DNA of 60,242 nt. It comes from Dyella sp. C11 (GTDB taxonomy: Bacteria; Pseudomonadota; Gammaproteobacteria; Xanthomonadales; Rhodanobacteraceae). The notes under the pieces are model-generated. The model was not told the origin of the DNA, made no database searches, and saw only the letters and a list, made by a program, of their open reading frames with translations. The stretch lies in contig NZ_QAVX01000028.1 of the NCBI RefSeq assembly GCF_003121485.1, positions 1 to 60,242 of the forward strand, read 5' to 3'. The translations under genes and the position numbers were made by a program. Position 1 is the first letter of the stretch. Every line of letters begins with the position of its first letter. Positions 1,018-28,779 of the stretch are shown one piece after another.

Positions 1018-1833
1018 TCACATCCGCGCCTTGGCGGTTCCCTTCAGTTCGACGCGCCGATTGGGTGCCAGGCACGCGATCAACGCATCACGCTTCCTGT
1101 CGTTGCATTGCACGACAGGGTCGGCATCGCCACGTCCACTGACCTGCATGGCCGAAGGCGCCACGCCGCGTGAGGCCAGGTAATCCCGCACCGATTCCGC
1201 GCGTCGCTGCGACAGGGCGAGGTTGTAGCGCTCGCTGCCGATGCGGTCGGTGTAGCCGGTAATCAGGATGTCCTGGATATGGCTGGCTTCCTGCACGCGC
1301 GAGAGCAACTGGTCGAGGTTGGCGCGGCCTTCGGGCGTGAGCGTGGCGCTATCGAAGCCGAACATGGCATCGGATGAGAGCGTGACAGCCATCATCGGCG
1401 CGACAGGCGCAGGGGACGGTGGCGGAGCCGGCGGTGCAAGCAGGTTCTTGCATGCCTCCGGCTTCCAGTAATACGCCTGCGCCAGATGATGGCTGTCGAA
1501 CTGGATCTGGAACTGGCACTTGATCACGCCGCCATCGGTTTCGCGGAATGCAAGGATGTAGTTCCAGCGACGCACACCGAACACGCCTTCGCTGAAGTGC
1601 GGTGCGCCCAACAAGTCGTACAGCTGGTGCTTGGTCATGCCTGGCGCAAGCTTGCGCAGGTTTTCCACGTTGACGAACGCGCCTTCCGGCATGGTGGAGC
1701 GCGCCGGATCGGGAAAATCCGGACCCGCGTCCGCCGCTTGTGCATGCACCGGCGTGGCACCACTGGCTGCTACGGCAACGGCTGCTGCCAGCAAGGCAGG
1801 AAGCAGCCGCTTCATTCCGAAGTTCTTTCGCAT
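1018..1833 (-). CDS. Periplasmic BamE-like/OmpA-like fusion, probable autotransporter helper (TpgA-like)
   Basis: This 271-residue protein starts at the ATG at 1833, which has AAGGGGAA upstream; in-frame ATGs further upstream lack this. It has a cleavable signal peptide (MKRLLPALLAAAVAVAASG...HAQA). Residues about 50-125 resemble the BamE/SmpA fold (RKLAPGMTKHQLYDLLGAP, then VFGVRRWNYILAF). After a proline-rich linker, residues about 150-265 form an OmpA/Pal peptidoglycan-binding domain (FGFDSATLTPEGRANLDQLL, TGYTDRIGSERYNLALSQRR). This domain order is that of TpgA, the periplasmic partner of the Acinetobacter autotransporter AtaA. The gene starts 41 bp after the large autotransporter on the same strand, so an operon and a role in its secretion or anchoring are likely. 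The autotransporter link is inferred from architecture and position; the OmpA domain is clear. Confidence 0.8.
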   Translation of the reverse strand: MRKNFGMKRLLPALLAAAVAVAASGATPVHAQAADAGPDFPDPARSTMPEGAFVNVENLRKLAPGMTKHQLYDLLGAPHFSEGVFGVRRWNYILAFRETDGGVIKCQFQIQFDSHHLAQAYYWKPEACKNLLAPPAPPPSPAPVAPMMAVTLSSDAMFGFDSATLTPEGRANLDQLLSRVQEASHIQDILITGYTDRIGSERYNLALSQRRAESVRDYLASRGVAPSAMQVSGRGDADPVVQCNDRKRDALIACLAPNRRVELKGTAKARM

Positions 1834-1874
1834 GACGATTCCCCTTGATCGCAATCCGAAGTTGGCGGCGGGCA

Positions 1875-4800
1875 TTACCACTGCATGCCCGCACCGATGG
1901 CCACGCCCGCATCGCCGCGCGTGTCGGCGCTGCCGCTGAGCTTGTAGACCCAGCGTCCGCCCTGCGAGATGGTGGAGACGCCGACCGAAATGCTCGACTC
2001 ACCGCGGAACGAGCCGACGGATACCGCGGCCATGCTGCGGCCGGGTTCGTACGCTTGCGGCAACCCGGCCATCGCCATGCCGGCAGCGATGCCTGCATTC
2101 GCGCGATTGCTCACGTTCTGGATCTGGCCGTTGAGCTGGTTGAAGCGCTGGTCGGTGTAGTTCTGTGCCCAGTTCTGCGCCTGCGTGATGCCGGCGTTCA
2201 ACTGCCCCACGTTTGCCGCATCGGTGGTGGCCGTGCCGGCCGCCACGTTGTGGATGGTGGTGGCCGTGCTGCTGCCGTTGCCCAGCGTGACGCTGCTGTA
2301 GTTGGTGGTGCCGTCGCTGTTGGTGTCGTAGCGCACGTTGCCTTGCGTGGAGGTGTTGATGCTGGCCTGCATCTGGCCCAGGTTCACCGCATCGGTGGAT
2401 GCCGTACCGGCGGCCACGTTGGTGATCTGGCGCTCGTTGCCGGCGCTGCCCACGGAGACGGTATTCGCGCGATCGGCGACCGAGCCCGAACCCAGGGCGA
2501 CGGAGTTGTCGGCCGTGGCACTCGCACCGTTACCCAGCGCCACCGTGTTGCTGCCGCTCGCCGTGGCGGCAGGACCCGCGGCTACGCTGTTGGTGCCGGT
2601 TGCGGTGGAATTGGCCAGCGTGGAATTGACGGTCCAGTACTTCGCGTTGGTGTTGTTGTTGACCGTGGTGCTGCCGCCGGTGCTGATGTTCTGGATGTCG
2701 TTGTACAGGCTGTAGTTGCTGTAGATGTTGGTGGTGTCCTGCGTCCAGTGCCACATCTGCGCGCCGTTGATCGCCTGCGTGCTGGTGGAGCTGATGTCGC
2801 CCTGGTGCAGGTTGGCGATGATGGTGCCGCCCGTGACGCCGCCATCCGTGCTGCTGGTGTTGTCCAGCGTGACCGTGGTGTGCGTGTTGTCGTCGTACTG
2901 CACGGCGTTGCCGGCGACGAAGGACACCGCTTCCAGCTGTGCCAGGTTCACTGCATCGGTTGCCGCACTGCCTGCCGCAACGTTGGTGATCTGGCGTTCC
3001 TGTCCCGGCGAACCAATGGACACTTCACCCGCGGAGTTCTGCGGCGTGCTCAGGCCATACGCCGCGTAACCGGTTTGCGCACCGCGCGTGGCGGTGGAGG
3101 CGTAGCCCAGCGCCACGCTGTTGGCCACGCTGGCCGATGCATTGGCACCGATGATGGTCTGCGCATTCGCCGTGCCGCTGGCGCTGTCGCCGATCACCAC
3201 GGAGTGGCCAAGGCGTGCGGCGTAGTCGTCGGTCGGCACGCCGGTGGGATCGTTCGGATCGTTGGTGCCGTTGCCGGGGAAGGCCTGGGCCGCCGTCACC
3301 GTCGGCAATGTGTGGCTGGCGTTGGTACCGATCACCACTTCCTTCGAGCCGTTGGCGGTGGCGCCGTCGCCCATCAGCACCTGGTAATCCTGTGCGGCGT
3401 TCACGCCCCAGCACGAGGCCTGCACCACGCCGCCCAGCACATTGGCGCAGGTGGATGCCCAACCCGGCGAGCTGTTCGGCAGCAGCAGGCCCAGCAAGCC
3501 ACCGGCCGCACCGTTGTTGATGTTGGTGATGTAGCTGTCCGACTTCACCGAGCCGATCAGCGTGAGATGCGAGTTGTCGCCCGTGCCGCCGAGCACGGTT
3601 CCACCCACCGTGGTGAGCGCGGTGCCCACCGGCGTGAGGTTCACCGTGGGAATGCCGGCCACGCTCACCGTCTCGTAGCCCTGCGTGAAGTTCGCCGCAT
3701 TCACCTGCATGCCACCGCTGGTGACGAAGCCGTTGGTGTTGTTGAACAGCGCACTTGCGGTGGTACCCAGCAATGACGACGCCGTACCCACCACGCCACC
3801 GTTGCTGATGATCATGCCCGTGGGCGTCGCCGACGGACCCGGCACCACCGGCACACCGGCCGGGCTGCTGCCCGTGCCACCGCTTGCCGATGTCGTCGCC
3901 GACGACACGCCAAGCACCGAAGCCACGCCGGGCAGCGCCTTGTCGATCAGATTCGATGCGCCCGGAATCGCGTTGATCAGGTTCTGTCCCGACGACTGGC
4001 CATTGCCGGTGGCGCCCAGCTGCACGCCAGGCACGCTGTTCGCCGTATCGGCCACCGTGTTGGTGAGATTGCCCAGCAGCGACGACGCCGTGCCGCCCTG
4101 CCCGAGCACATTGGTAAGACCCGTGCCGTTCGGCTGCGACAGCACATCGCCCACGGTCGAAGTGACATTGCCGACGGTCTTGCCCACATCCGGCAATACC
4201 TTGCCGAGCGACGACGAACTGCCCGAACCCAGCACGCCACCAAGGCCGCCGGAGGTCGTGCCGGCGACTGCGCCGACGACATTGTTGAGCGCGCCCGTCA
4301 CCGGCTGCAGTACGCCGGTGGCCGTACCGGCGAGCGGCGTGCCCGCCGTCACCGCACCCACGATGCCCGTCACCGTATTGGTGACACCACTCACCGTGGA
4401 AGGAAGATTCGATACCGTGCCCGTCGCACCGCCGGACGTCGCCGAGCCAAGCACGCTGCCGACCGTCGAGGTGACGCCCGACACCACGCCGCCAACACCG
4501 CCCAGGCCCGTGCCACCCGCCACCGGGTTCAGCACGCTGCCCACCGTGGACGTCACACCCGCCACCAGGCCACCCAGGCCATTGCCCGAACCGGTATTCG
4601 CAACGCTGCCCACGACGTTGTTGATCGTCGAAGTCACCGGCTGCACAACACCCGTCGCGGTACCCGCGAGCGGCGTGCCCGCCGTAACACCACTGACCAC
4701 GCTCGACACCGTGTTGGTGGCACCGGAGACCACCGCAGGAAGATTGGAAGCGATGGCGCCGATATTGCCGAGGCCGGTGCCACCCGCCGCCGGGTTCAGC

Positions 4801-7094
4801 ACACTGCCAACGGTCGATGTCACACCGGAAACCACGCCACCGAAGTTGCCGAGACCGGCGCCACCCGTGACCGGATTCAGCACGCTGCCCACGGTCGATG
4901 TCACACCGGATACCACACCACCGACATTGCCGAGGCCCGTGCCGCCCGTCACCGGATTGAGCACGCTGCCGACGGTCGATGTCACACCGGACACCACACC
5001 GCTGACGTTGCCGAGGCCGGTGCCACCCGTTGCCGGGCTCAGCACGCTGCCGACCGTCGACGTCACACCGGAAACCACCCCACCGACGTTGCCGAGGCCC
5101 GTGCCACCCGTGCCCGGGTTCAGCACGCTGCCGACGGTCGACGTCACACCGGAAACCACGCCACCGACGTTGCCGAGGCCCGTGCCACCCGTGACCGGGT
5201 TCAGCACGCTGCCGACGGTCGACGTCACACCGGAAACCACGCCACCGACATTGCCGAGGCCCGTGCCACCCGTGACCGGATTCAGCACGCTGCCGACGGT
5301 CGACGTCACACCGGAAACCACGCCACCGACATTGCCGAGACCCGCGCCACCCGTGTCCGGGTTCAGCACGCTGCCCACGGTCGACGTCACACCAGACACC
5401 AGGCCGCCGACGTTACCGGCACCTGTCGTTGTTCCTGCAAGTGTCGTGGCGACGTCATGCAGTGTCGATTCCACCGGCGGCAACACGGTGCTGGTCACAC
5501 CCGCAACCGGCGTTCCAGCGGTCACGCCGCCAACCACACTGTTCACCGCGCCATTCACGCCATCGACCGTCGCCGGCAATGTGGATACAAGACCGTTGGA
5601 ACCCAGCACGCCGCCGAGGCCCGAACCGTTGCCCGCACCGGCAAGCGTGGTTGCCACGTTGTGCAGTGTCGATTCCACGGGTGGCAACACCGTGCTGGTC
5701 ACGCCGGCGAGCGGCGTACCTGAGGTCACACCCGCAACCACACCATTCACGGCGCCGTTCACGCCATCGACCGTGGCCGGCAGCGTGGACGTCAAGCCAG
5801 TGGAACCCAGCACGCCGCCGAGGCCGCCGCTGGTTCCCGTGCCTGCGACCGTCGTCGCCACGTTGTGCAGCGTCGATTCCACCGGCGGCAACACGGTGCC
5901 GGTGACACCGGCGAGCGGCGTGCCGGCAGTGACACCGCCAACGACACCGTTCACTGCATTGTTCACGCCATCGACAGTCGACGGCAACGTGGACACCAGG
6001 CCATTCGCTCCCAATACGCCGCCCAGCCCGGAGCCACTACCGGCACCGGCGAGCGTGCCGGTCACGTTGTGCAGCGTGGACTCCACCGGCGGCAGCACCG
6101 TGCCGGTGACACCGGCAAGCGGTGTACCGGCGGTCACGCCGCCGACAACACCGTTCACGGTGCTGCTTACGCCATCCACCGTACCGGGCAACGCGGACAC
6201 CACACCGCTCACATTGCCGGCACCCAGGCTGCCGGTGATCGGCTTCAGCGACGACACCAGTTCGCCACCCACGTGCACATTCACATTGGCATTCACCAGC
6301 GGCTTGCTGGAAAGCACCGGTACCGACAACCCGACGTGCGCGTGCGCATCCACCAGGTCGCCGTTGCTGGCGAGCACGGCGGCTTTCGCGCCCACCGTGG
6401 CATTCAGCGGCGACACGCTGGCGCCCGAGGTGCCGACAGGAATGGCCGGCGTACCGACATGGACAAGACCATCCGCCCCCACAAGCGCGGGCGCGTTGTT
6501 GTCCACCAGCGAACTGGTGACGGCGGCGTGCGTAGCAATGACCACCGAGCGGTTGCGATCGGCAACGTCGTTGTTACCAGGCAATACGGCCGACACCAGG
6601 CCCTGGCCCAGTGCGGCGACATCGACACCGTTCGTGCGCACCGGCGCGCCGGATACGGCGACACCCGAGCCCATCTGCTGGCTGGTGGGTACCACCGGTA
6701 TGGACGTCCGGACGCGGACGCCGGCGACCATGCTCTTGCGCCGCGCGGCCGACGTGGTGGATGTGGTTGCCGTGCTTCCTGCATTCGACGTACCCGTCGC
6801 ACTGGACGGTGCATTGATGTTGACGTTGACGGGCAACACGGCCTGCTGCGAAGGCGAACCGTATTTCGCGAGCAGACCCTGCAGATCATTGAGCTTGGCG
6901 TCGTCCACGCTTTGCGCGTGCGATGCCGGGTGCCAGGCCAGCGCGCAGAGCGCCAGGCCACTCAGCAGCAGGGTGCGCGTCGAGCACAGGAAGCCCATGC
7001 GGGACGCTGTGCGCTGACGCTGCGATGAAAGTTCCGAGGCCGGTACCCACGCGCGGCGTGACTCGGACCACACGAGACGATAGATGCGATTCAT
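1875..7094 (-). CDS. Trimeric autotransporter adhesin with ESPR signal and repeat-rich stalk (1739 aa)
   Basis: The start is the ATG at 7094, because the protein then begins MNRIYRLVWSESRRAWVPAS, a clear extended signal peptide region (ESPR) typical of very large autotransporters; cleavage is expected near SHAQ. The N-terminal third is unusual Gly/Val/Thr/Ser-rich repeat: first 3.75 copies of a 68-residue unit (TVDGV...TPLAGVT.TVLPPVESTLH), then eight copies of a 27-residue unit (GLGNVGGVVSGVTSTVGSVL), then degenerate copies. The C-terminal third holds YadA-like head and neck motifs (NTVALGNGASATADNSVALG, ERQITNVAAGTASTDAVNLGQ), a coiled coil (NYTDQRFNQLNGQIQNVSNR) and a YadA anchor of about 75 residues ending in W. 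Expected function is trimeric surface adhesion. The repeats are not a family I recognise. It is followed by the BamE/OmpA-like gene in a probable operon. Confidence 0.92.
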   Translation of the reverse strand: MNRIYRLVWSESRRAWVPASELSSQRQRTASRMGFLCSTRTLLLSGLALCALAWHPASHAQSVDDAKLNDLQGLLAKYGSPSQQAVLPVNVNINAPSSATGTSNAGSTATTSTTSAARRKSMVAGVRVRTSIPVVPTSQQMGSGVAVSGAPVRTNGVDVAALGQGLVSAVLPGNNDVADRNRSVVIATHAAVTSSLVDNNAPALVGADGLVHVGTPAIPVGTSGASVSPLNATVGAKAAVLASNGDLVDAHAHVGLSVPVLSSKPLVNANVNVHVGGELVSSLKPITGSLGAGNVSGVVSALPGTVDGVSSTVNGVVGGVTAGTPLAGVTGTVLPPVESTLHNVTGTLAGAGSGSGLGGVLGANGLVSTLPSTVDGVNNAVNGVVGGVTAGTPLAGVTGTVLPPVESTLHNVATTVAGTGTSGGLGGVLGSTGLTSTLPATVDGVNGAVNGVVAGVTSGTPLAGVTSTVLPPVESTLHNVATTLAGAGNGSGLGGVLGSNGLVSTLPATVDGVNGAVNSVVGGVTAGTPVAGVTSTVLPPVESTLHDVATTLAGTTTGAGNVGGLVSGVTSTVGSVLNPDTGGAGLGNVGGVVSGVTSTVGSVLNPVTGGTGLGNVGGVVSGVTSTVGSVLNPVTGGTGLGNVGGVVSGVTSTVGSVLNPGTGGTGLGNVGGVVSGVTSTVGSVLSPATGGTGLGNVSGVVSGVTSTVGSVLNPVTGGTGLGNVGGVVSGVTSTVGSVLNPVTGGAGLGNFGGVVSGVTSTVGSVLNPAAGGTGLGNIGAIASNLPAVVSGATNTVSSVVSGVTAGTPLAGTATGVVQPVTSTINNVVGSVANTGSGNGLGGLVAGVTSTVGSVLNPVAGGTGLGGVGGVVSGVTSTVGSVLGSATSGGATGTVSNLPSTVSGVTNTVTGIVGAVTAGTPLAGTATGVLQPVTGALNNVVGAVAGTTSGGLGGVLGSGSSSSLGKVLPDVGKTVGNVTSTVGDVLSQPNGTGLTNVLGQGGTASSLLGNLTNTVADTANSVPGVQLGATGNGQSSGQNLINAIPGASNLIDKALPGVASVLGVSSATTSASGGTGSSPAGVPVVPGPSATPTGMIISNGGVVGTASSLLGTTASALFNNTNGFVTSGGMQVNAANFTQGYETVSVAGIPTVNLTPVGTALTTVGGTVLGGTGDNSHLTLIGSVKSDSYITNINNGAAGGLLGLLLPNSSPGWASTCANVLGGVVQASCWGVNAAQDYQVLMGDGATANGSKEVVIGTNASHTLPTVTAAQAFPGNGTNDPNDPTGVPTDDYAARLGHSVVIGDSASGTANAQTIIGANASASVANSVALGYASTATRGAQTGYAAYGLSTPQNSAGEVSIGSPGQERQITNVAAGSAATDAVNLAQLEAVSFVAGNAVQYDDNTHTTVTLDNTSSTDGGVTGGTIIANLHQGDISSTSTQAINGAQMWHWTQDTTNIYSNYSLYNDIQNISTGGSTTVNNNTNAKYWTVNSTLANSTATGTNSVAAGPAATASGSNTVALGNGASATADNSVALGSGSVADRANTVSVGSAGNERQITNVAAGTASTDAVNLGQMQASINTSTQGNVRYDTNSDGTTNYSSVTLGNGSSTATTIHNVAAGTATTDAANVGQLNAGITQAQNWAQNYTDQRFNQLNGQIQNVSNRANAGIAAGMAMAGLPQAYEPGRSMAAVSVGSFRGESSISVGVSTISQGGRWVYKLSGSADTRGDAGVAIGAGMQW
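4779..5426 (-). repeat. Eight tandem 81-bp in-frame repeats within the autotransporter
   Basis: Eight contiguous 81-bp units encode 27 residues each (xGLGNVGGVVSGVTSTVGSV followed by LNPxxGG). The CACGCTGCC or CACACTGCC element recurs at 4800, 4881, 4962, 5043, 5124, 5205, 5286 and 5367, which gives the exact period. Units differ mainly at synonymous sites and at the PVTGG/PGTGG/PATGG positions. The array preserves frame, so unit loss or gain would change stalk length without breaking the gene. Confidence 0.95.
5427..6191 (-). repeat. 3.75 tandem 204-bp in-frame repeats within the autotransporter
   Basis: A 68-residue unit begins LPxTVDGV and contains GVTAGTPLAGVTxTVLPPVE. The landmark ACGCCATCGACC (or a close variant) falls at 5557, 5761, 5965 and 6169, exactly 204 bp apart. 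In coding order the fourth copy is cut short after 51 residues, where the 81-bp array begins. Confidence 0.93.
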
Positions 7095-7221
7095 GAGAAG
7101 TCCCCTTTTGGCCGGCGCAGCGCACGTCGTGTGTCCGCGCATACAGTCCATGCGAGCTCTACCGGCACACCTCATGTGCAACCGGCAACGCTTGGGGTTC
7201 ATTACAGCGATCGCAGCGCTT

Positions 7222-7305
7222 GCCAGATGTCCCAATCCGGCAACGACATATGCCGATCCGGCAATGCCTTGGGCAAATACGGCAGCACCCTGCACAAATC
7301 CGGCA
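7222..7305. promoter_or_regulatory. Four 21-bp direct repeats (iteron-like) upstream of the autotransporter
   Basis: Four contiguous 21-bp blocks each end in TCCGGCA or TACGGCA, at 7236-7242, 7257-7263, 7278-7284 and 7299-7305. Read towards the autotransporter (minus strand) each begins TGCCGGAT or TGCCGTAT. The period equals two helical turns, so the sites lie on one DNA face. Two further TGCCGGT sites, 20 bp apart, lie closer to the gene (about 7167 and 7187). The block lies after the AraC terminator and 128-211 bp upstream of the autotransporter start. A related 15-mer upstream of the AraC gene differs at two positions. A regulator-binding array is likely; that the AraC protein binds it is inference. 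Confidence 0.75.
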
Positions 7306-7333
7306 CAACGCAAAAAGCGCACTGCCGGACCGC

Positions 7334-7364
7334 GGGAAAAACAAAGGGCGCCATCGGCGCCCTT
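7334..7364 (-). terminator. Rho-independent terminator of the AraC-family gene
   Basis: A 9-bp stem, AAGGGCGCC (7344-7352) with GGCGCCCTT (7356-7364), closes an ATC loop. On the minus strand it is followed by a T-rich run (TTTGTTTTTC). It lies 11 bp after the AraC stop at 7375 and separates that gene from the autotransporter control region. Confidence 0.85.
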
Positions 7365-7374
7365 GTGTCCTGCC

Positions 7375-8346
7375 TCAGGCCACCTCGAAGGGTGGCGCGC
7401 GCATCAAGGTATCGCGCGGGCGCTCGCCGAACACGCGCCGGTAGTGATCAGCGAAGCGCGAGAGATCCCAAAGGCCGCAACTGAGTGCCACCGACTTCAC
7501 CGAACGGCGGCTGGCATCGGACAGCGTGAGGTTCTTGCAGGCGGTGCACAGGCGCAGCATCGACAGATAACGGTTGGGCGACACGCCCAGCAAATCGTCG
7601 AAGGCATAGCGCAAGGCGCGTTCGCTCACACCGGCGGCATTGCACAACTCGGTGATGTAGATGTCCCGCCGCAGGTTGCGCCGCATGAATTCCTCGGCGC
7701 GCTGCATGGCCAGGTAATGCGTGCGCCGGCCGCGCGAACACGGCGGCCGGTCTTCGGCGCGCGCAGACAGCGCGGCAATCAGGTGTGTTTCCAGCAGGGC
7801 ATCCAGGTCGATGTCCGACACCGAACCCTCGCCCGGCCCCTGAAGCACGCACTCACGCACGGCCTCGAGCCGGGTGCGCAACGCGCGGGCGCGGTCGTCG
7901 TCGGACAGCATGAAGAGCGAAATGGCACGCGTCGGTACGTCAGCCTGGTGTGGATTGAGTTCCAGATACTTGTTCACCAGGCGCTGCTGCGGCACCAGCA
8001 CGCCCGTCACGCTGCTGCCGGAGTTGAGCATGAATTCGCTCATGCCTTCGGGGAACACCGTAAAGGCCATGCCGGCATCCAGCGACGTGCCGTGGCACCA
8101 GCTCTCCTGCGACGTGCGATGAAGATAGCCCAGCAGGCACCAGCCCTGGGGCAGCGTAAAGCGGCCGCGGAAGGCAAAGTTCACCTCGCCACTGAAATAG
8201 ATGGCCTGCTCCGACGCGATCGAGTCGACGTGCGCCTTCGGGCCTTGCTTGCCGAGCAATACCAGCTCCAGCTCACAGACCTTAAGAATTCCGCACAACG
8301 TCACGAGATCGGGCGACTGCAGTCCGACGTCGTTCTCGACACCCAT
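7375..8346 (-). CDS. AraC-family transcriptional regulator
   Basis: A 323-residue regulator. The C-terminal region, about residues 231-310, carries two helix-turn-helix motifs: ITELCNAAGVSERALRYAF, then VKSVALSCGLWDLSRFADHY followed by FGERP, the standard AraC/XylS signature. The N-terminal 200 residues would be the sensing/dimerisation domain; no ligand is evident. I place the start at the ATG at 8346 because AGGGGGG precedes it by 7 bases. The longer frame to 8415 would need a TTG start and has no such site. The gene sits between a trimeric autotransporter and the tad pilus operon, facing away from the latter. A 15-bp sequence upstream of it resembles the 21-bp repeats before the autotransporter, which suggests autoregulation and adhesin control (inference). 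Confidence 0.88.
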   Translation of the reverse strand: MGVENDVGLQSPDLVTLCGILKVCELELVLLGKQGPKAHVDSIASEQAIYFSGEVNFAFRGRFTLPQGWCLLGYLHRTSQESWCHGTSLDAGMAFTVFPEGMSEFMLNSGSSVTGVLVPQQRLVNKYLELNPHQADVPTRAISLFMLSDDDRARALRTRLEAVRECVLQGPGEGSVSDIDLDALLETHLIAALSARAEDRPPCSRGRRTHYLAMQRAEEFMRRNLRRDIYITELCNAAGVSERALRYAFDDLLGVSPNRYLSMLRLCTACKNLTLSDASRRSVKSVALSCGLWDLSRFADHYRRVFGERPRDTLMRAPPFEVA

Positions 8347-8960
8347 TGATTGCCCCCCTGAGGCATACCGATCCATGCACTCAATAATCCACTGTTCGAT
8401 TTTCCCCGGTGACAAGGTGCATTAAAGAATTTGCACGCCTCGTCCCAATGCACATATTCGGCAATGCCAGATTTGGCTGAAATGCCACCCGTGAGTTTGT
8501 GATTCAGATCACACAATTTGGATTGGCGCCTGCCGTTTTTGTGCAAGCAATCACGCACACCCGAACAAGACTGTGGGCGTACACCACTCCGTCCAGGAAG
8601 GCCGGAATGTACATGCACGGGGGATTTCATGGGCTGCGAAAATCGCGACTTTAAGGTTCGCGTCAGTTATTCGTCATTAACTGTCGTGAAACCGGCATTC
8701 ACAAACATCACGATTTCTCACAGCGTCGATTTTCCGTCGAAAGTACTTATTTGACGGACTCCCGCAGCCATTATTTTCTCGATCCAATAAGCCATTCGGC
8801 CTATTAGAACGATGAAAGGCATGGCATGTGCATTCGTTCGATTAGTCCGAATGGACTAGTTACGAAGTGCTTAGTCGTTTTATCGCCCAGTCGATAACCG
8901 CTGGCAGGCTTTTCAAATCGACTTAATCAGAGCGTAAGGCTCAAAACGGGAGACACGAAA
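8347..8960. other. Long divergent intergenic region between the AraC gene and flp
   Basis: This stretch of 614 bp has no convincing gene. It is visibly more AT-rich than its surroundings, especially 8640-8950. It must hold the AraC promoter and the flp/tad promoter, giving flp a potentially long leader. A copy of the repeat found before the autotransporter lies at 8443-8463. I could not find a convincing -35/-10 or sigma-54 pair for flp by eye. The short ORF at 8518-8754 has no ribosome site or recognisable features. Confidence 0.6.
8443..8463. promoter_or_regulatory. Single copy of the 21-bp operator-like motif upstream of the AraC gene
   Basis: The 15-mer TGCACATATTCGGCA at 8449-8463 matches TGCACAAATCCGGCA at 7291-7305 at 13 of 15 positions. 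It lies about 100 bp upstream of the AraC start, where an autoregulatory site would be expected. Shared occurrence at only these two promoters, as far as I could read, supports one common binding protein. Confidence 0.6.
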
Positions 8961-9176
8961 ATGAACGCAATGGTTCGCAATTTCCTCGTCGAAGAAGACG
9001 GTGTTACCGCCATTGAATATGGCGTGCTCGCGGCCATTGTTGCCGCGGCCATTGTTGCCGGGTTCTCCACGCCATTACACGACTTGTTCCAGACCATTTT
9101 CAGCCAGCTGACCACGGCAGTCGGCGGCGGAACGGGCACCGGGACAGGAACCGGCACGGGTACAGGGACGGGCTAA
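8961..9176 (+). CDS. flp: Flp-family type IVb pilin with Gly-Thr tail
   Basis: A 71-residue prepilin. After the short leader ending EEDG, cleavage after G14 would give a mature N-terminus VTAIEYGVLAAIVAAAIVAG, the Flp signature with Glu at position 5 and Tyr at 6. This is the major subunit of the tad-exported pilus. GGGAGACAC precedes the ATG. The C-terminus is odd: after LTTAVGG it runs as GTGTGTGTGTG to the stop. Successive Gly-Thr pairs use different codons, so the tail looks selected as protein rather than produced by simple nucleotide slippage. The gene is first in the tad operon, which runs uninterrupted on the same strand to about 20.6 kb. Confidence 0.93.
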   Translation: MNAMVRNFLVEEDGVTAIEYGVLAAIVAAAIVAGFSTPLHDLFQTIFSQLTTAVGGGTGTGTGTGTGTGTG

Positions 9177-9254: not shown

Positions 9255-9797
9255 ATGGGTGCACTGCTTCCAATGCTCGCAACGGTGCTTGGCGCGCTGG
9301 TCGTGCCCAGTGACCTGTATGCGCGCCGGGTACCCAATGCCTGGCTGATCGCCGCGCTGGGCATTGCCAGCGTGGCTGCCGCTGCGCAGTTTCTTGCTGG
9401 TGTCACCCATCCGGTTTGGCCGTCCATACCTGGATTGCTGACCGGCCTGGCAAGCATGCTTCCTTTCTACGCCTTGCGCTGGATGGGCGCGGGCGACGTA
9501 AAGCTGTTTGCCACGCTCGGCTTCCTGCTGGGTGTGCGAGCCCTGCTCCCTATCTGGATCATCGGCTGCCTGCTGACCGGCGTGCACGCCGTGGCGGTGC
9601 TGCTGTTGCGGCGGCCGCGTTTTGCCTACGGGCCTACGGTGTCGCTGATTCGCCAACATATGTATGCGTCGTCCCTGTGGCAGCGTTCGATGCTGGCGCG
9701 CCAGGGGCGCGTGGGCTTGCCACATGCCGCGTACCTGGGCATTGGCACGCTGGTCGTGGTGATGCATCCGGAGCTGATGGCCTGGAGGACGCCGTGA
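9255..9797 (+). CDS. cpaA: Type IV prepilin peptidase (CpaA/TadV, A24 family)
   Basis: A 180-residue integral membrane aspartic peptidase that removes the leader from the Flp pilin and TadE/TadG-type pseudopilins. The two catalytic Asp motifs are present: D20 in PSDLYARRVPNAW and D81 in GAGDVKLFATLG. Several hydrophobic helices surround them. The family is usually 150-180 residues, so this is full length; it lacks the N-methyltransferase domain of PilD, as expected for CpaA. GGGGGGAATG precedes the ATG. Its stop overlaps the GTG start of the next gene by 4 bp, indicating translational coupling. Confidence 0.92.
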   Translation: MGALLPMLATVLGALVVPSDLYARRVPNAWLIAALGIASVAAAAQFLAGVTHPVWPSIPGLLTGLASMLPFYALRWMGAGDVKLFATLGFLLGVRALLPIWIIGCLLTGVHAVAVLLLRRPRFAYGPTVSLIRQHMYASSLWQRSMLARQGRVGLPHAAYLGIGTLVVVMHPELMAWRTP

Positions 9798-10294
9798 ACC
9801 GGCGCCACCCACCGTCCCGCCCGGCACGCCAGCGTGGCGTCGCGGCTATCGAGTTCGCGCTGATCTTCCTGCTTGGCGTGCTGCCGCTGCTGCTGATTTC
9901 CTTCACGGGCGCGATGATTTTCGCCGCCCAGCAATCCCTGTCGCTGGCCTCGGCCGAAGGCGCCCGCGCCGCGCTTCAATACGGCACCACGGCACAGCGG
10001 CAAAGCAATGCCTGCTACGCGGCGCAACGCTCCATGTCGTGGCTGCTGGCGTTTTCCGGGGACACCCCCAACTGCGGCACGCCGACGGCGCCCGGCGGCG
10101 CCTATACAGCCATTGCCGTGTCGGCGGCTTCGGCCTGCCCCAGCAACGCAACGATGCAGTGCATCACCGTGGTGACCTCCTTCAATTACAACGCGCACCC
10201 GTTTGTTCCCGGCGTCAGCGCGCTGTACGGCTGGCTCATGACTTCCAACCTCAGCAGCACGGCCACCGTGCAGCTGGATCTCTCGGGCAGCTGA
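9794..10294 (+). CDS. tadE: TadE-like minor pilin/pseudopilin
   Basis: A 166-residue protein starting at a GTG that overlaps the cpaA stop (GTGA) with GGAGGAC just before it. The N-terminus RQRGVAAIEFALIFLLGVLP is the TadE signature: a basic leader, a G-V cleavage site, Glu20 and a single membrane helix. A periplasmic domain with three or four Cys follows. TadE proteins are processed by the prepilin peptidase and are needed for Flp pilus assembly. The start is not covered by a longer ATG-initiated frame that makes biological sense. Confidence 0.88.
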   Translation: MNRRHPPSRPARQRGVAAIEFALIFLLGVLPLLLISFTGAMIFAAQQSLSLASAEGARAALQYGTTAQRQSNACYAAQRSMSWLLAFSGDTPNCGTPTAPGGAYTAIAVSAASACPSNATMQCITVVTSFNYNAHPFVPGVSALYGWLMTSNLSSTATVQLDLSGS

Positions 10295-10324
10295 CGAGAC
10301 AACGAGAACCGGAGACGCTTTCAG

Positions 10325-11305
10325 ATGCACAACGTGTCACGCATCGCCGCCATCTTGCTGGTCGTCCTCGCGACGGTGCTGGCCATGGTCGCCTTTACGC
10401 TCGGCAGGCGCCATCAGGAAGCCGATGCGATGAAAGCCGTCGCAGCACCCACGGCGCCGGCTGTACCCGCTCCACCGGCCAACGTGGCGCGCGTGGTGGT
10501 GGCTGCGCAGATGCTCCCGGGAGGGGAAGTGATCCGCGCCACGTCGCTGCGCGAAATCCCGGCCCCCTCCATGCCCGAAGGCAGTTTTGCCCAGCCCGAA
10601 TTGCTGGTGGGCGAAGTGCCACGCGTGAACATTCCCGAAGGCACCGTGATCACCGCGTCGCTTTTGTCCAACCCCATCGCCATGCAGCTGCGTCCCGGTG
10701 AACGCGCTCTCGCGGTGCCGGTCGATGAAATCTCGGGCGTCGGCTATCGCGTGCAGCCCGGTGACTACGTGGATGTGGTGCTGACGCTGAAGACGGCGGA
10801 ACCGATGCCCAACAACCTGGCCAAGGATCAGTCGCAGACCCGACTGATCGCTTCGCGCCTGCGCGTGCTTGCCTACGGTGCGCGCGACCTGCCGCATGTC
10901 GGCGCCGCACCAGCCGTAAAGACCGACCAGGCCGAACCGCCAGCCAGGATGGCCGTGCTCGCCGTGCCGCTGGCCGACATCGATCCGCTCGTGCTTGGCG
11001 CACACAGCGGCCGGCTGTCGCTTGCCCTGCGTCATCCTGGCGATGACGGCATGCCCAGCGACATGCTGTTTCCCATGCCGGCCACGGTGCTGTCGCCACG
11101 CAACGATCTCAATGCGGAACAACGTGGCTGGCTGGCGCTTCCGGAAAACCGCGCCTATGCAGGCGTGGCAGAACCGGGCCTGATCGGGCGTTCCAAGACC
11201 AGTGCTCCACCCTGGACGCCGCGGCGAACGGCACCGCCCGGGCTTGAAATCATCCGTGGCACCACCGCTTCGTCGATGCGCGCCCAGCCGCCGGTGACGC
11301 CATGA
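10325..11305 (+). CDS. cpaB: Flp pilus assembly protein CpaB (RcpC)
   Basis: A 326-residue periplasmic protein with an N-terminal membrane anchor (residues about 7-27). An SAF/RcpC domain follows: ARVVVAAQMLPGGEVIRATS, then LREIPAPSMPEGSF and NIPEGTVITASLL. RPGERALAVPVDEISGVGYRVQPGDYVDVVLTL is the typical CpaB C-terminal core. It is thought to stabilise or gate the CpaC secretin. It overlaps the next gene by 4 bp (ATGA). Length matches the family. Confidence 0.9.
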   Translation: MHNVSRIAAILLVVLATVLAMVAFTLGRRHQEADAMKAVAAPTAPAVPAPPANVARVVVAAQMLPGGEVIRATSLREIPAPSMPEGSFAQPELLVGEVPRVNIPEGTVITASLLSNPIAMQLRPGERALAVPVDEISGVGYRVQPGDYVDVVLTLKTAEPMPNNLAKDQSQTRLIASRLRVLAYGARDLPHVGAAPAVKTDQAEPPARMAVLAVPLADIDPLVLGAHSGRLSLALRHPGDDGMPSDMLFPMPATVLSPRNDLNAEQRGWLALPENRAYAGVAEPGLIGRSKTSAPPWTPRRTAPPGLEIIRGTTASSMRAQPPVTP

Positions 11306-12606
11306 TCCATGCGCATCGCTTCACCATCGCCCTGCTGGCCGGCATGACACTGCTTGCGGGTTACGCCAGCGCCACCACCGACGCCTCCATCGTGTTGCAG
11401 GTGCATGAGCAACGGCCGTGGCATGTGCCGACGGACATTGAGCGCGTGGCCATTGCCGATCCTTCCGTTACCGACATCGTGATGCTGAAGGGCCAGCGCG
11501 ACGCGCTCCTGGTGGGCAAACATGCCGGCGAAACCACGCTGCTGCTGTGGCGTCGTGGCGATACCACGCCGCAACGCCTGGCCGTGCAGGTACACAGTGC
11601 CGGTCAAACCGCATTGCAGAACAACAGCGGCCTGCAGATTTCCGTGCAGGACAACGAAGCCGTGCTGCGCGGCCAGGCCGACAGCATGCTCGAACACGAG
11701 CGCGGCGTGGCCGCGGCCACGAATGCCGTGGGCGACAAGGGCGCGGTGATCGACGCGTCCAGCGTCGCCAGCGGCGGCGTGGTGCAGGTGGAAGTGAAAT
11801 TGGTGGAGTTCGACAAGACGGTGATGAGCCAGATCGGCCTCAACTTCCAGGCCGTGAACAATGGCTTCAGCTATGGCTTCAGCTCGCCGTTATCGAGCAC
11901 GACCACCACGGGCAGCGCCCTTTCCTCCGCGTTCAACCTGGTGATGGGTCACACCAGCGCCAACGGCAACCATTCGTGGAATGCCAATCTCGATTTGCTG
12001 CAAACCGACGGCATGGCGCGCGTGCTGGCCGAGCCCACCCTGGTGGCGTTGTCGGGCCAGAGTGCGAGCTTCCTCTCGGGCGGCGAATTGCCGATCCCGG
12101 AACCGCAGGGCCTTGGCACCACCACCATCATCTATAAGCCGTTCGGCATCGGCCTCACCGTGACGCCGACCGTGCTCGCGCCCGATCGCATCGCGTTGAA
12201 GGTGGCACCGGAAGCGAGCGACCTGGATTACACCAACGCCGTGGTGGCCAACGGTGTCTCCGTACCGGCGATCACCACGCGCCGCGCAGACACCACGGTA
12301 GAGCTGGGAGACGGCGAAACCTTCGTCATCGGCGGACTGGTGAGCCAGAACATCAGCAGCCAGGTGGACAAGATCCCCCTGCTGGGTGACATCCCGATCA
12401 TCGGCTCGTTCTTTCGCGACCTGAAATACAGCCGCCAGGACAAGGAGCTGGTGCTGATCGTGACGCCGCACCTGGTGCGGCCGATCGCCAAGGCCACCAA
12501 GCTGCCTCTGCCAGGCGAACGGGAACAGCGAAACAACCTGCCAGTGTGGGGCTCGTGGCTGCTCAACCCGGTGGGCTCCGATCAATTGCCGGGGTTCTCG
12601 CGCTGA
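11302..12606 (+). CDS. cpaC: Flp pilus secretin CpaC (RcpA)
   Basis: A 434-residue outer-membrane secretin through which the Flp pilus emerges. There is a signal peptide ending near GYASA, an N-terminal secretin/TonB short region (HVPTDIERVAIADPSVTDIV) and a BON-like segment (VLRGQADSMLEHERGVAAA). The C-terminal secretin domain, residues about 155-395, includes ALSGQSASFLSGGELPIPE, ITTRRADTTVELGDGETFVI and VDKIPLLGDIPIIGSFFR, the family hallmarks. Length is normal. It is translationally coupled to cpaB by an ATGA overlap and followed 10 bp later by cpaE. Confidence 0.93.
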   Translation: MIHAHRFTIALLAGMTLLAGYASATTDASIVLQVHEQRPWHVPTDIERVAIADPSVTDIVMLKGQRDALLVGKHAGETTLLLWRRGDTTPQRLAVQVHSAGQTALQNNSGLQISVQDNEAVLRGQADSMLEHERGVAAATNAVGDKGAVIDASSVASGGVVQVEVKLVEFDKTVMSQIGLNFQAVNNGFSYGFSSPLSSTTTTGSALSSAFNLVMGHTSANGNHSWNANLDLLQTDGMARVLAEPTLVALSGQSASFLSGGELPIPEPQGLGTTTIIYKPFGIGLTVTPTVLAPDRIALKVAPEASDLDYTNAVVANGVSVPAITTRRADTTVELGDGETFVIGGLVSQNISSQVDKIPLLGDIPIIGSFFRDLKYSRQDKELVLIVTPHLVRPIAKATKLPLPGEREQRNNLPVWGSWLLNPVGSDQLPGFSR

Positions 12607-12616
12607 GGACATGGCC

Positions 12617-13897
12617 ATGCAGGCAAATCCCACGGTGGTGACCTTGACCAAGCCGGCGCTCGATTCGACGCTGTTGCTGTATTCGCCGGACGAGAACAAC
12701 GCACAGCGCTTTTCCGCGCGCCTGCGCAGCCTGGTGATGCTGTCGTGGTGCGACAGCAACCAGTTCTCCGCAAGTCGCCGCGTGCTGGATGCACACCAGG
12801 CCCGCCTGGTGCTGCTGGACTTCTCCAAGGGTTACACCGATGCGTCCGCCGAGATCGCGCGCCAGTTGATGGCGCTCGATCCGGGGCTTGTGCTGCTGGG
12901 CATCGGTTCGGCGGCGTCGGATCGCGGCGCTGGCGTGCTGTGCGCCATGCGCGCAGGCCTGCGCGACTTCATCGACATCGATGCGGGCGACGACGAAATA
13001 CTCGATCAACTGAAGACCGCGCTGGTTCAATGGCGCACGGCGGCGGATGGCCAGCCCGCGCGGGCCGTGAAGCGCGGGCAGCTGGTGCTCATATGCGGCG
13101 TGCGGCCCGGCCTGGGCAGCAGCACGCTCACCGCCCACCTGGGTGCGCTCGCCGCGTCGATCAAGCCTTCGGCCGTGGCACCCGCGAGCGCCAACAACGT
13201 GATGCTGCTGGACCTGGGGCATTCGAGCGGTGATGTGAGCCTTTACCTGGGCACCGGAGGCGACTTCCATTTCGACGACGCCTTGCGCAACGCCAACCGC
13301 ATCGACGCCACGCTGGTGCGCACGGCCGTGCCGCGCCACGTCAGCGGCGTGGCTGTACTGGGACAGCCGCGGGAACGCAACATCAGCCTGGGTGGTGCGG
13401 AAGTCGGTCCGTTGCTCGAACGCCTTCTCACCATGTTCGACCTGGTGCTGTGCGACCTCGACAGCCGCATGCTGGACGACGTTGCCCACACCTTGCTGAA
13501 GATGGCCGACGAAATCTGGCTGGTCACCGACCAGTCGATTGGTTCGATGGTGGCGCTCGACGCCTGCCTGCGCCAGCTGGAACGGGCGCAGGCGCGCGAC
13601 CTGCGCGTGTCGCTGGTGGTGAACCGCCACGACGAGGCATGCGGCATCAGCGGAGCGCGCATCGCCGAGCGCTTCAGCGTGCCGCTGCTGGCTACCTTGC
13701 CGGAACGCTCGCGACCGCTGCGCACCACCGCAAATCGTGGCTCGCTGCTGCACGAAACCGCGCCGAACGACCTGTACGTCCGTGCGCTTGCTCCACTCCT
13801 TGACCGATTCCGGCTGCGCACGAAGCGCGACGCCGGCAGGGGCGGCTTGAGGATGTTGATCAACCGACTGGGGGGCAACCTATGGAAACGCCGCTGA
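12617..13897 (+). CDS. cpaE: Flp pilus assembly protein CpaE (MinD/ParA-like, degenerate Walker A)
   Basis: A 426-residue protein with an N-terminal receiver-like region and a C-terminal SIMIBI ATPase domain. In Tad systems CpaE/TadZ localises the machinery to a pole. The start is set at 12617, where GAGG lies 8 bases upstream; the ATG at 12611 is only 2 bases from it. The deviant Walker A motif at residues 161-170 reads GVRPGLGSST, so the signature Lys is Arg and no Lys is present. ATP binding may be altered or lost, as in some TadZ proteins. Walker B-like NNVMLLDLGHSSGD follows. It overlaps cpaF by 16 bp. Confidence 0.88.
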   Translation: MQANPTVVTLTKPALDSTLLLYSPDENNAQRFSARLRSLVMLSWCDSNQFSASRRVLDAHQARLVLLDFSKGYTDASAEIARQLMALDPGLVLLGIGSAASDRGAGVLCAMRAGLRDFIDIDAGDDEILDQLKTALVQWRTAADGQPARAVKRGQLVLICGVRPGLGSSTLTAHLGALAASIKPSAVAPASANNVMLLDLGHSSGDVSLYLGTGGDFHFDDALRNANRIDATLVRTAVPRHVSGVAVLGQPRERNISLGGAEVGPLLERLLTMFDLVLCDLDSRMLDDVAHTLLKMADEIWLVTDQSIGSMVALDACLRQLERAQARDLRVSLVVNRHDEACGISGARIAERFSVPLLATLPERSRPLRTTANRGSLLHETAPNDLYVRALAPLLDRFRLRTKRDAGRGGLRMLINRLGGNLWKRR

Positions 13898-15246
13898 ATT
13901 CCTCAAGCACATTGCTGGCCGCCGCACTGCGACGCGCCGATGTGTCCGCCCGCCTGGATGGACCGGAGCTGCCGTTCGACCAGACGCAGCAGTTCCAGGA
14001 CGTGCTGTCGGCCGCGCACGAATTCCTGCTCAACCGCATCGAAGACCAGCGCATCGATATTGCGTCGTGGTCGCGTACCACGGTCACCAAGTACGTGGAG
14101 ACGGAAACCGCCAGCTTCGTGCAGGAGTGGCGCATTCCGGTCAACGAATCGGAGATGCAGCAGGTGTCCGGCGCGCTGGTGAAGGAACTGACCGGCTTCG
14201 GGCCACTGGATGATCTTCTGCTCGACGCCGAAGTCGAAGACATCCTGATCAACGGCCACGACGACGTCTACGTGTCGCGCAAGGGCGTGCTTCGCCGCGA
14301 GAACATCCGCTTCAGCGACAACCATCATCTGCTGCGCATCGTGCGCCGCATCCTTGCGCCGCTGGGCCGTCGACTGGACGACTCCAATCCGATGGTGGAC
14401 GCGCGCCTGCCCAACGGTGGACGCCTGAACGCCATCATCGAGCCTCTCTCGGTCGCCGGTCCCTGCGTGTCCATCCGCAAATTCCGCAAGGACCCGTTCA
14501 CGCCCGAGGAGCTGCAGGAAAAAGGCACGTTCGACCACGCCATCCGCAAGCTGCTGGAAGCCATGGTGCTGGGTCGCTGCAACATCATCGTTTCCGGTGG
14601 CACCAGCTCGGGCAAGACATCGCTGCTCAACGCGCTGGCCAGTTTCATTCCGCCGCACGAGCGCGTGATCACGGTGGAGGACACGGCAGAACTGTCGCTC
14701 AACCATCCGCACGTGGTGCGACTGGAAAGTCGCCTCGGCAGTTTCGATGGCGAAGGTGCGGTGAGCATTCGCGACCTGGTGCGCAACAGCCTGCGCATGC
14801 GCCCCGACCGCATCGTGGTGGGTGAGGTACGCGGCACCGAAGTGCTGGAAATGCTGCAGGCGATGAACACCGGCCACGACGGATCGATGTCCACCATCCA
14901 TGCCAATTCCGCGCGCGATGCGCTCTATCGCCTGGAAATGCTCGCGGGTTTCGCCGGCTTTCAGGGCAGCGAGAACAGCCTGCGCCGCCAGATTGCCAGC
15001 GCGGTGGATTTCATCGTGCAGATTGCGCGCCTGAGCAACGGTCGCCGCGTGATCTCGTCCATCACCGAAGTCACCGGCGTGGGCGACAACGTGATCACCA
15101 CGCAGGACATGTATCGCCATGATCCTTTCGTCGATCGCGATGGCAAGGATGTCGATCGCTGGATGAGCCTTGGCCTGCAGCCGCATACCACGAAGCTCGA
15201 ACCCTTCCGCCAGATGCTGCGCGAGTCCAACGGCCCCTTCGCATGA
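13882..15246 (+). CDS. cpaF: Flp pilus assembly ATPase CpaF (TadA)
   Basis: A 454-residue secretion ATPase of the VirB11/PulE superfamily that powers Flp pilus polymerisation. Walker A is GGTSSGKT at residues 239-246. The Asp box (RVITVEDTAELSL), Walker B (RMRPDRIVVGEVRGTEVLEM) and His box (GHDGSMSTIHANSARDALYR) all follow in order. The N-terminal domain carries DILINGHDDVYVSRKGVL, typical of CpaF. Length is normal. GGGGGGCAACCT precedes the ATG, which lies inside the 3' end of cpaE; the stop overlaps tadB by 4 bp. Confidence 0.95.
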   Translation: METPLNSSSTLLAAALRRADVSARLDGPELPFDQTQQFQDVLSAAHEFLLNRIEDQRIDIASWSRTTVTKYVETETASFVQEWRIPVNESEMQQVSGALVKELTGFGPLDDLLLDAEVEDILINGHDDVYVSRKGVLRRENIRFSDNHHLLRIVRRILAPLGRRLDDSNPMVDARLPNGGRLNAIIEPLSVAGPCVSIRKFRKDPFTPEELQEKGTFDHAIRKLLEAMVLGRCNIIVSGGTSSGKTSLLNALASFIPPHERVITVEDTAELSLNHPHVVRLESRLGSFDGEGAVSIRDLVRNSLRMRPDRIVVGEVRGTEVLEMLQAMNTGHDGSMSTIHANSARDALYRLEMLAGFAGFQGSENSLRRQIASAVDFIVQIARLSNGRRVISSITEVTGVGDNVITTQDMYRHDPFVDRDGKDVDRWMSLGLQPHTTKLEPFRQMLRESNGPFA

Positions 15247-16175
15247 TCCAGGCGCTCGCCCTCGCCAGCTTCGTGCTGCTGATGCTCGCTGGTGCGGTGG
15301 AGCTTTGGTGGGGCAGCGCTTTGCGTCTGCAGCAGCGTCGCAACCTGGAAAGCATCGAGCAGCGACTGGTGGCGCGCGTGCCGGCAGACACGCGGGGATT
15401 GCCCCCGTCGTTACCGGCCGCGCCACGGCGCCGCCCGGCGGGCAAGCAGGCGGATGAATTCCTGATGCGCGCCAACCTGCCCAGGGACCGCGCGATCTGG
15501 CTGGCACTGATCGGTCCCGGCGTGTTGCTCACGCTGCTGGCGTGGTGGCGCATCGGCAGCGCATGGTCGCTGCCGCTGATGGCCAGCCTGTACACGGTCG
15601 TGCTGTGGCTGTGGCTGCGTCATCGCATCGAACAGCAGCAACAGCGGATGCTGGCGCAGCTTCCCGATTTCCTCGACGGCATGATCCGCATGACGAGCGT
15701 GGGCAACAGTCTGCCCATGGCTTTCCAGAGCACCACCAAATCCGTCGCCATGCCACTGCGGGATGTGCTCGACCGCACGCTGTCGTCCATGCACGCGGGT
15801 GCGGATCTCGACCAGGCACTGGCCATGGCGACGCGTCCGTACGCCCTCGAAGAGTTTTCTTTGCTGCACGCCGTGTTCGGCATCGGGATGCGCATTGGTG
15901 GGCGCGCGGACCACATCCTTCAACGCATGGGCGACTTCATGCGCGATCACGCGGCTGCGCGGGCCGAACTGAGGGCAGTGACGTCGGAAACGCGCATGTC
16001 GGCCTGGGTACTGGCGTTCCTTCCCATTGCTGTGTCGACTTTCATGACGCTGATTGATCCGACCTTCTTCAAGCCGATGTTCTTCACCACCATCGGGCAC
16101 AAATTCTTGCTGGTGGCGCGTGTGCTGGAGGTCACCGGCGGCCTGCTGCTGTATCGGCTGGCCAAATCGCTCTGA
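15243..16175 (+). CDS. tadB: Flp pilus inner-membrane platform protein TadB
   Basis: A 310-residue type II secretion F-domain membrane protein. It has an N-terminal helix, two central helices (IWLALIGPGVLLTLLAWW and SLPLMASLYTVVLWLWLR) and a C-terminal pair. The cytoplasmic GspF domain includes QLPDFLDGMIRMTSVGNSL and ALEEFSLLHAVFGIGMRIGG. With TadC it forms the platform that couples the CpaF ATPase to pilin extraction. It starts in a 4-bp ATGA overlap with cpaF. Confidence 0.92.
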   Translation: MIQALALASFVLLMLAGAVELWWGSALRLQQRRNLESIEQRLVARVPADTRGLPPSLPAAPRRRPAGKQADEFLMRANLPRDRAIWLALIGPGVLLTLLAWWRIGSAWSLPLMASLYTVVLWLWLRHRIEQQQQRMLAQLPDFLDGMIRMTSVGNSLPMAFQSTTKSVAMPLRDVLDRTLSSMHAGADLDQALAMATRPYALEEFSLLHAVFGIGMRIGGRADHILQRMGDFMRDHAAARAELRAVTSETRMSAWVLAFLPIAVSTFMTLIDPTFFKPMFFTTIGHKFLLVARVLEVTGGLLLYRLAKSL

Positions 16176-28056: not shown

Positions 28057-28582
28057 AGGGAACGTGGCGACATGGATCGAGGCGCGGGCAAGCCCTGAGT
28101 GTCGCTTTCGCTTTTTGCTTTGGCTCTTTCCCGGGGGCCCCGTATGACAGCGGCGGGCGGGTGAAGGATCAGCCCGCAGGGTGGCTGGCATGGATGCCAG
28201 CCAGTTTGTCGTCAGGGCAGGATGCCCTGTCGACAAACCCCGTAACCCGCACGCGAACCTGGAGGCCGAAGGCCGGAAGGCGCGTCATCCGGGGTGCCCT
28301 TCTCTTTGGTTACTTTCTGACGCGAAGCTAATCCCCGTGGGACTTGGGCAAGCAAGGGAAAGTGACCCGGCCTCCGGCAGGAGGTCGGAAGCCCGCGGCA
28401 GGCGAGCCAGGTTGCGGAGAAGCTGCAATCGAGCGACAAGCCAAAGGCAAAGTCACTGGATTACCGGCCTGTGGGCCGTTGAAAAGCGCCTCCGGCCTAC
28501 GCCGGGATGACAGTGAGGGGATAGCGAGGTCATCGCAAGAATGGCCGTAGGCGCAGGAAACGTGACCGCGAGCACCTTCCCC

Positions 28583-28779
28583 TTACCCCAACCCTCTCCC
28601 CAGAGGGGAGAGGGAGCAAAAGCAGGCACGACGAATAGAAAGGGTGAGGCTAGGTTGACCCCTCACCCCAACCCTCTCCCCAGAGGGGAGAGGGAGCAAA
28701 AGCAGGCACGACGAATAGAAAGGGTGAGGCTAGGTTGACTCCTCACCCCAACCCTCTCCCCGGCGGAGACAGGGAGCAA
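28583..28779. repeat. Tandem 80-bp duplication carrying a CTCTCCCC palindrome
   Basis: The block starting CAGAGGGGAGAGGGAGCAAA at 28601 recurs exactly at 28681, so the period is 80 bp. Two full copies are followed by a diverged partial third up to about 28779 (CGGCGGAGACAGGGAGCAAA). Each unit contains a palindrome plus an identical 40-bp non-palindromic spacer. The two full copies are almost identical, which implies a recent duplication. Confidence 0.9.

Follow-up and report, generated by a model that had tools for sequence, protein, structure and literature searches.

A predicted AraC/XylS-type activator of its own gene, a Tad pilus operon and a giant trimeric autotransporter adhesin in Dyella sp. 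C11

An AraC-family protein of the soil bacterium Dyella sp. C11 is best read as a class II activator of the AraC/XylS type that is dedicated to three targets, namely its own gene, a Tad pilus operon and a giant adhesin gene. On the strength of sequence comparison, we give this reading a probability of roughly 0.82. The window (the whole stretch of 60,242 nucleotides that was analysed) is a single contig (C20) of a genome of 4.73 Mb in 46 contigs. Its minus strand carries, in order, araC, a terminator-like stem, four 21-bp blocks, the adhesin and a BamE+OmpA ORF; beyond the araC upstream region, the plus strand carries flp and then the tad genes (Table 1). The position of araC between two attachment systems, together with the conserved array before the adhesin promoter, suggests that a single regulator may turn on both the pilus and the giant adhesin.

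Table 1. Features of the araC, adhesin and flp/tad region, in positions of the window
Feature	Positions	Strand	Basis
BamE+OmpA ORF, overlaps adhesin stop	1018..1881	-	Pfam OmpA 3e-22, BamE 6.3e-16
Giant trimeric autotransporter adhesin, 1739 aa; ESPR signal, YadA stalk/head	1875..7094	-	translation; Pfam
-10-like TGTAAT, putative adhesin promoter, 36 bp after copy 4 start	7201..7206	-	conserved place in 32 non-redundant arrays
Array copy 4 (promoter-proximal), TGCCGGATTGGGACA	7228..7242	-	pattern search and comparison
Array copy 3, TGCCGGATCGGCATA	7249..7263	-	pattern search and comparison
Array copy 2, TGCCGTATTTGCCCA	7270..7284	-	pattern search and comparison
Array copy 1 (distal), TGCCGGATTTGTGCA	7291..7305	-	pattern search and comparison
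Terminator-like hairpin 3' of araC	7344..7364	-	stem scan
araC, AraC-family regulator, 323 aa, ATG start; stop codon 7375-7377	7378..8346	-	Pfam HTH_18 1.7e-18, HTH_AraC; AlphaFold model
-10-like TTTAAT, araC promoter, 37 bp after A-site start	8421..8426	-	read from sequence; similar hexamers at 36-37 bp in many relatives
A-site, putative operator at araC promoter, TGCCGAATATGTGCA	8449..8463	-	comparison
T-site, perfect match, putative operator facing flp/tad, TGCCGTTTTTGTGCA	8531..8545	+	comparison
Weak -10-like AAGACT, tad promoter, 36 bp after T-site start	8567..8572	+	comparison
Flp/Fap pilin, head of tad cluster	8961..9176	+	Pfam Flp_Fap 5.1e-12
tad/cpa genes: prepilin peptidase, RcpC/CpaB, secretin, CpaE-position ORF, ATPase, T2SSF protein	9255..16175	+	Pfam

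The adhesin has the make-up of a type Vc trimeric autotransporter (ESPR with YadA-type stalk and head repeats): ESPR scored 42.6 bits (cut-off 25), the YadA stalk 70.3 (cut-off 28.4) and the YadA head 24.6, slightly under its cut-off of 25. For the C-terminal membrane anchor, no Pfam anchor model matched at E 0.01, and the NCBIfam Vomp C-terminal model gave 53.1 bits over 1636-1737 (cut-off 500). The BamE+OmpA ORF is a probable operon partner of the adhesin; TpgA is described as a peptidoglycan-binding helper of the adhesin AtaA in Acinetobacter (PMC6604945). On the other side of araC, Pfam recognized all of the expected components of a tad/flp pilus locus (Flp pilin, prepilin peptidase, RcpC/CpaB, secretin, ATPase and T2SSF protein), and the CpaE-position ORF had no Pfam match. 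The terminator-like stem belongs to a class that was not above shuffle expectation (one found vs. a shuffle mean of 2.4).

The sequence-only reading had described four blocks between araC and the adhesin (7222-7242, 7243-7263, 7264-7284 and 7285-7305), at exact 21-bp spacing and each terminating in T[C/A]CGGCA, and our analysis bears this out: the four-copy pattern TGCCG/N16 had one mismatch-free match in the window (with a second, register-shifted match at two mismatches) and none, with up to two mismatches allowed, in 100 dinucleotide-preserving shuffles of the window. Read toward the adhesin, the blocks take the form TGCCG[G/T]ATxxGxxxA, and linkers of 6 bp separate copies 1 to 4. Neither the TGTAAT hexamer downstream of the array nor the T-site figured in that earlier description. 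It did report two minus-strand TGCCGGT sites nearer the adhesin, which exist (7181-7187 and 7161-7167, 20 bp apart); we do not count them as operators, because they lie beyond the -10 and are poorly conserved in four Dyella relatives (L012, L013, L015 and L016), only L016 keeping two TGCCGG.

Under the mechanism that we propose, AraC would bind the 15-bp site TGCCGnATTTGTGCA through two helix-turn-helix motifs in successive major grooves, in the manner of AraC/XylS proteins. At the adhesin promoter, the four sites would be aligned on one face of the DNA, every two helical turns; copy 4, judging from the position of the -10, would overlap the -35 region, and it ends 21 bp short of the -10, so that AraC bound there would touch RNA polymerase (class II activation), while the upstream copies 1-3 may recruit or stabilize the promoter-proximal AraC. 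We infer the identity of AraC as the binder, the sign of its effect (activation) and the cooperative filling of the four sites. The geometry of a class II operator (direct repeats, with the proximal site over the -35 and near the -10) was found in the window and in 32 non-redundant arrays, the overlap with the -35 being deduced from where the -10 lies. Within its own genome (4.73 Mb), the refined pair pattern matched only this array (three overlapping matches; reversed control 0). Full single sites of the form TGCCGNWWNYGTGYA occurred five times in the same 4.73 Mb, three of them at the locus (array copy 1, the A-site and the T-site). The two others (C23 and C41) were considered as further targets and rejected: they have no convincing -10 at +36 and may be there by chance, since the reversed control itself gave three matches.

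The A-site and the T-site would extend this scheme to the other two promoters, with the single A-site, in a similar geometry, serving araC itself (autoregulation) and the single, oppositely facing T-site serving the flp/tad operon. The sequence-only reading had noted that the 15-mer at the A-site agrees with the fourth block (7291-7305) at 13 of 15 positions, as we also find by eye. Many relatives have a TxxAAT-like hexamer after the A-site and a weak xAxxxT after the T-site, both at 36-37 bp. In the alignment of the tad -10 (36 T rows), the last T column alone exceeded 0.55 bits, which makes this -10 the softest part of the picture. The T-site tends to occur where tad is linked to araC: a site matching at least 12 of 13 positions was found in 26 of 40 tad-linked loci vs. 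none of 27 others, and one matching at least 10 of 13 in 39 of 40 vs. 10 of 27 loci without tad (mononucleotide shuffles reached a score of 12 in 2 of 670 and at least 10 in 55 of 670). Four adhesin-bearing loci without tad beside araC (L094, L095, L096 and L117) are without a T-site. One locus with a distant AraC and tad (L111) has none either, which counts against the proposed regulon.

Five tad clusters unlinked to araC served as an outside test. One AraC-bearing genome, with its tad cluster 57 kb from araC (G052), has a T-site matching 13 of 13 positions before flp, and three genomes with no AraC relative at E<=1e-30 (G080, G115 and G188) have no tad site scoring at least 12 (best 11, 10 and 10). 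The fifth (G135) bears AraC and has no site at its tad cluster, which counts against the proposed regulon. At the level of gene content, the tad secretin (E<=1e-60) was found in all 8 AraC-bearing members of the genus in the family sample (18 genomes) vs. none of the 10 others, and AraC was present in 19 of the 22 genomes of the family with a tad secretin. Between the T-site and flp, GGGGG followed by ATG (GTG in two loci) stands at 8619-8631 in the window; of 39 tad-linked loci, 27 have it, at 78-107 bp from where the T-site starts. It is a candidate for a translated leader or a strong ribosome site ahead of flp. Of these two, we rejected a leader peptide, the encoded peptides (by eye) not being conserved outside near relatives.

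The A- and T-sites are mutually inverted, with their centres 82 bp apart in the window, and the inverted pair is kept upstream of araC in most family-one tad-linked relatives. This pairing, together with the fact that sites overlapping a -35 can exclude polymerase, is what one might expect if AraC represses, or alternates between repression and activation like E. coli AraC, for example by looping between the A- and T-sites. We consider this unlikely: the distance between A- and T-sites differs among relatives, and the distance from site to -10 is the same as that at which AggR activates. A promoter scan of 7060-9000 also found no sigma-70-like promoters, as expected of activator-dependent promoters, although this is a weak point (shuffle mean 0.7). 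AraC acting as an activator at all three promoters is the reading that we retain.

The sequence-only reading had named the absence of the repeats from orthologous loci as grounds for giving it up; on the contrary, the array is present in all 9 AraC-bearing genomes among the 20 of the genus that were searched, as well as outside the genus, a second family included. AraC relatives were also sought in 197 genomes of the family (48 with a relative at E<=1e-30) and in 398 of the order (69 at E<=1e-50), and 80 regions around them, of up to 13 kb each, were fetched, making 81 loci with the window. Four exact TGCCG at 21-bp spacing lie shortly downstream of araC in 33 of the 81 loci, down to about 49% identity and in two families, and additional loci have three exact copies and one altered copy. 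The first family is represented by Fulvimonas, Rhodanobacter and Frateuria, among others; the second family is, we infer, the Xanthomonadaceae (Stenotrophomonas and Pseudoxanthomonas).

For an alignment, 42 arrays were picked by hand (AraC loci with three or four copies plus three unlinked arrays) and collapsed to 32 that were less than 80% identical over 186 bp; one locus with only three copies (L118) was realigned manually to make the third copy the proximal one, which put its -10 in place, and in another (L092) the first copy is spaced at 20 rather than 21 bp. The average information was 1.89 bits in the TGCCG columns, 0.49 in the linkers and 0.21 in the flanks, the first of these figures being circular because TGCCG served as the anchor. 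The -10 played no part in the anchoring: 36 bp on from the start of the proximal TGCCG begins a hexamer, mostly T[G/T/C][T/A]AAT (1.8/0.7/0.8/2.0/1.6/2.0 bits), with T first in 31 of the 32 arrays and AAT at the end in 30 (the others are TGTACT and TGTAGT). Among rows of the g11 type (g11 and L097), 7 of 21 have TCTAAT at the usual distance from an array of two or three copies, but these seven are no independent evidence for the -10, because their search required one.

Where the adhesin has decayed, the array may outlast it or precede another gene. Three loci (L132, L133 and L134) retain a four-copy array though the downstream adhesin ORF is eroded or absent, and in four g11 loci (L098, L101, L102 and L148) the adhesin is broken or gone and small arrays precede a gene that we take, from its sequence, to be LdcA-like; L095 has one site only. 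We count all of these loci against the proposal. Raw automatic counts placed an array in 38 of 41 rows positive for a trimeric autotransporter and in 8 of 26 negative rows, by a flawed detection that missed one adhesin with ESPR present (L081), gave one doubtful positive (L146) and, through its -10 filter, missed L139.

More distant AraCs (36-41%) form a clade of nine rows (support 100/100), of which eight, all but L115, were inspected for an array. Seven of these loci (L113, L114, L116, L141, L154, L155 and L156) have a large downstream adhesin-like ORF, six of them with an MN[RK]IYSKVWN ESPR start. Read by eye, the DNA preceding this ORF has three sites at spacings of 20 and 22 bp, TGCCR or TTCCR and some of them degenerate, and TTCAAT or TTGAAT at 36 bp from where the last site starts. 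No array was seen by eye in the sequence of the remaining member (L142), nor before the adhesin of a 35% relative outside the clade (L152), and both loci weigh against the proposal.

A three-copy pattern made of TGCCG only matched 185 of the 197 family genomes and was judged too weak, and the order was scanned with a stricter one (TGCCGNWW at 21 bp), which matched 36 of 398 genomes (reversed control 1, G221). Three of the 36 (G416, G417 and G426) owe their matches to simple tandem repeats of 7 or 21 bp; the remaining 33 array genomes comprise 32 of the 69 with AraC and 1 of the 329 without. These loci and genomes are related, some nearly identical, so the counts are not independent events and we attach no probability to them. 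In two genomes (G002 and G009), where the search for an adhesin start next to araC found none, the array precedes an ESPR adhesin that lies about 25 and 7 kb away, respectively, on the araC contig; a third (G446) likewise has it before an adhesin. In these three genomes, then, the array goes with the adhesin and not with araC.

The one exception (G015) has two arrays in a 330-contig assembly in which the AraC search gave one weak match only. Arrays without a close AraC relative would be expected if another DNA-binding protein used them and the adjoining AraC were a mere passenger, an explanation that we hold to be very improbable, given that AraC is present in 32 of the 33 array genomes, that a site lies at the promoter of araC itself and that altered arrays accompany paralogous AraCs. 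The array as a functionless neutral tandem duplication is scarcely credible, since, even though slippage can make tandem units of equal length and simple repeats account for the pattern matches of three other genomes, the copies hold to a position-specific sequence from genus to genus, with divergence in the linkers and flanks, and the phase of the -10 is preserved. Control of the adhesin by AraC, as first proposed, is supported by the conserved array and -10 and by array genomes being, bar one, a subset of those bearing AraC; for autoregulation and for control of tad, the support comes from the single sites, which are conserved and stand in a similar relation to a -10. Judged by comparative evidence of this kind, the original proposal appears largely right.

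In two genomes (G007 and G015; L192 array index 3559 and L190 array index 4794), a gene encoding a small CxxC-rich protein is also preceded by three-copy arrays with the usual -10. This gene is a possible second target; it was not found in the Dyella sp. C11 genome by a search run without a positive control.

The four named relatives found for the regulator itself are all from Dyella (D. kyungheensis, 87% identity; Dyella sp. ASV24, 87%; AtDHG13, 84%; D. jiangningensis, 72%). It has the C-terminal domain of the AraC/XylS family (about 100 aa with two HTH motifs; HTH_18 67.1 bits, cut-off 33.6), and its AlphaFold model combines two helix-turn-helix motifs with a cupin-like N-domain, which corresponds to the N-terminal effector/dimerisation domain of that family. 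The C-terminal domain of the model superposed on 3mn2_A with an rmsd of 2.4 over 108 residues, and ToxT was the top full-length fold match, with Rns also among the matches; by sequence, known structures matched were HTH-domain structures only. CuxR, an AraC-like activator, has c-di-GMP as its ligand; AraC is only 11% identical to CuxR (5nla), with BgaR (10.5) tied. JGI annotation names relatives of AraC as an EutR-type ethanolamine activator. AraC resembles EutR in the HTH domain, over the C-terminal part, but its score there (65.7 bits) is far under the curated cut-off (319), as was the best score to any NCBIfam named equivalog (AndR, 85.4 vs. 350), and we reject the EutR identity. The automatic label, which these scores call into question, is probably a misannotation.

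The XylS sites at Pm have a 21-bp period, and Rns and ToxT are AraC-family activators of adhesive structures. XylS is described as binding at Pm to two direct 15-bp repeats, read by two HTH motifs (PMC5481539), the second of which overlaps the -35 (PMC4225500), a geometry that the Dyella array matches. The systems differ in that Pm has two sites and the Dyella array four, in that the XylS boxes (TGCA and GGNTA) differ from the Dyella sites, and in that XylS responds to benzoic acid derivatives and controls aromatic degradation. AggR sites are reported 21-22 bp before the -10, compared with 21 in the Dyella array; they differ in being AT-rich and in that one correctly placed site is described as enough (PMC6392122). 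The Yersinia regulator VirF/LcrF, also of the AraC family, is described as activating yadA, a trimeric autotransporter gene (PMC5977175, PMC3962397), but it serves a type III secretion regulon and has AT-rich sites of about 40 bp at the promoters that it binds directly (PMC3962397). No AraC regulator of trimeric autotransporters or of tad matching this module appeared in the titles and abstracts among the matches listed from the open-licence literature, nor in passages of PMC5234846. The proposed regulatory mechanism is of a known kind, and the regulon and the four-site operator seem new.

The analysis predicts exact base positions for the regulator, operators and promoters that would join two attachment machines, in two families, and the code TGCCGnATTTGTGCA plus 36 bp to the -10 lets further adhesin targets be read from sequence. 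Promoters with one to four sites also form a natural series for studying how site number affects the response to an AraC-type regulator. As a tentative and rather doubtful extension, the AraC clade and its paralogues may form a separate regulator family that pairs with giant trimeric autotransporters, and the threshold at which each adhesive structure switches on would depend on how many phased sites (1-4) it has. As the level of active regulator rose, the one-site genes araC and tad and the four-site giant adhesin would then fire in a set order. That level would be set, through the CuxR/ToxT-like N-domain, by a surface or cell-density signal, for example c-di-GMP or a fatty acid of the DSF type.

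Some minor features of the window deserve mention. By eye, ORF ends resembling the BamE+OmpA ORF come after the adhesins of three other loci (L094, L117 and L120). The adhesin gene contains internal tandem repeats at 4765-5418 (81 bp x 8.1, 90% matches) and 5458-6202 (204 bp x 3.7, 78%), the number of which may differ between strains. At 28579-28781, an 80-bp unit is repeated 2.5 times (95% matches); it is rich in CCCTCACCCCAACCCTCTCCCC and looks like an intergenic repeat element.
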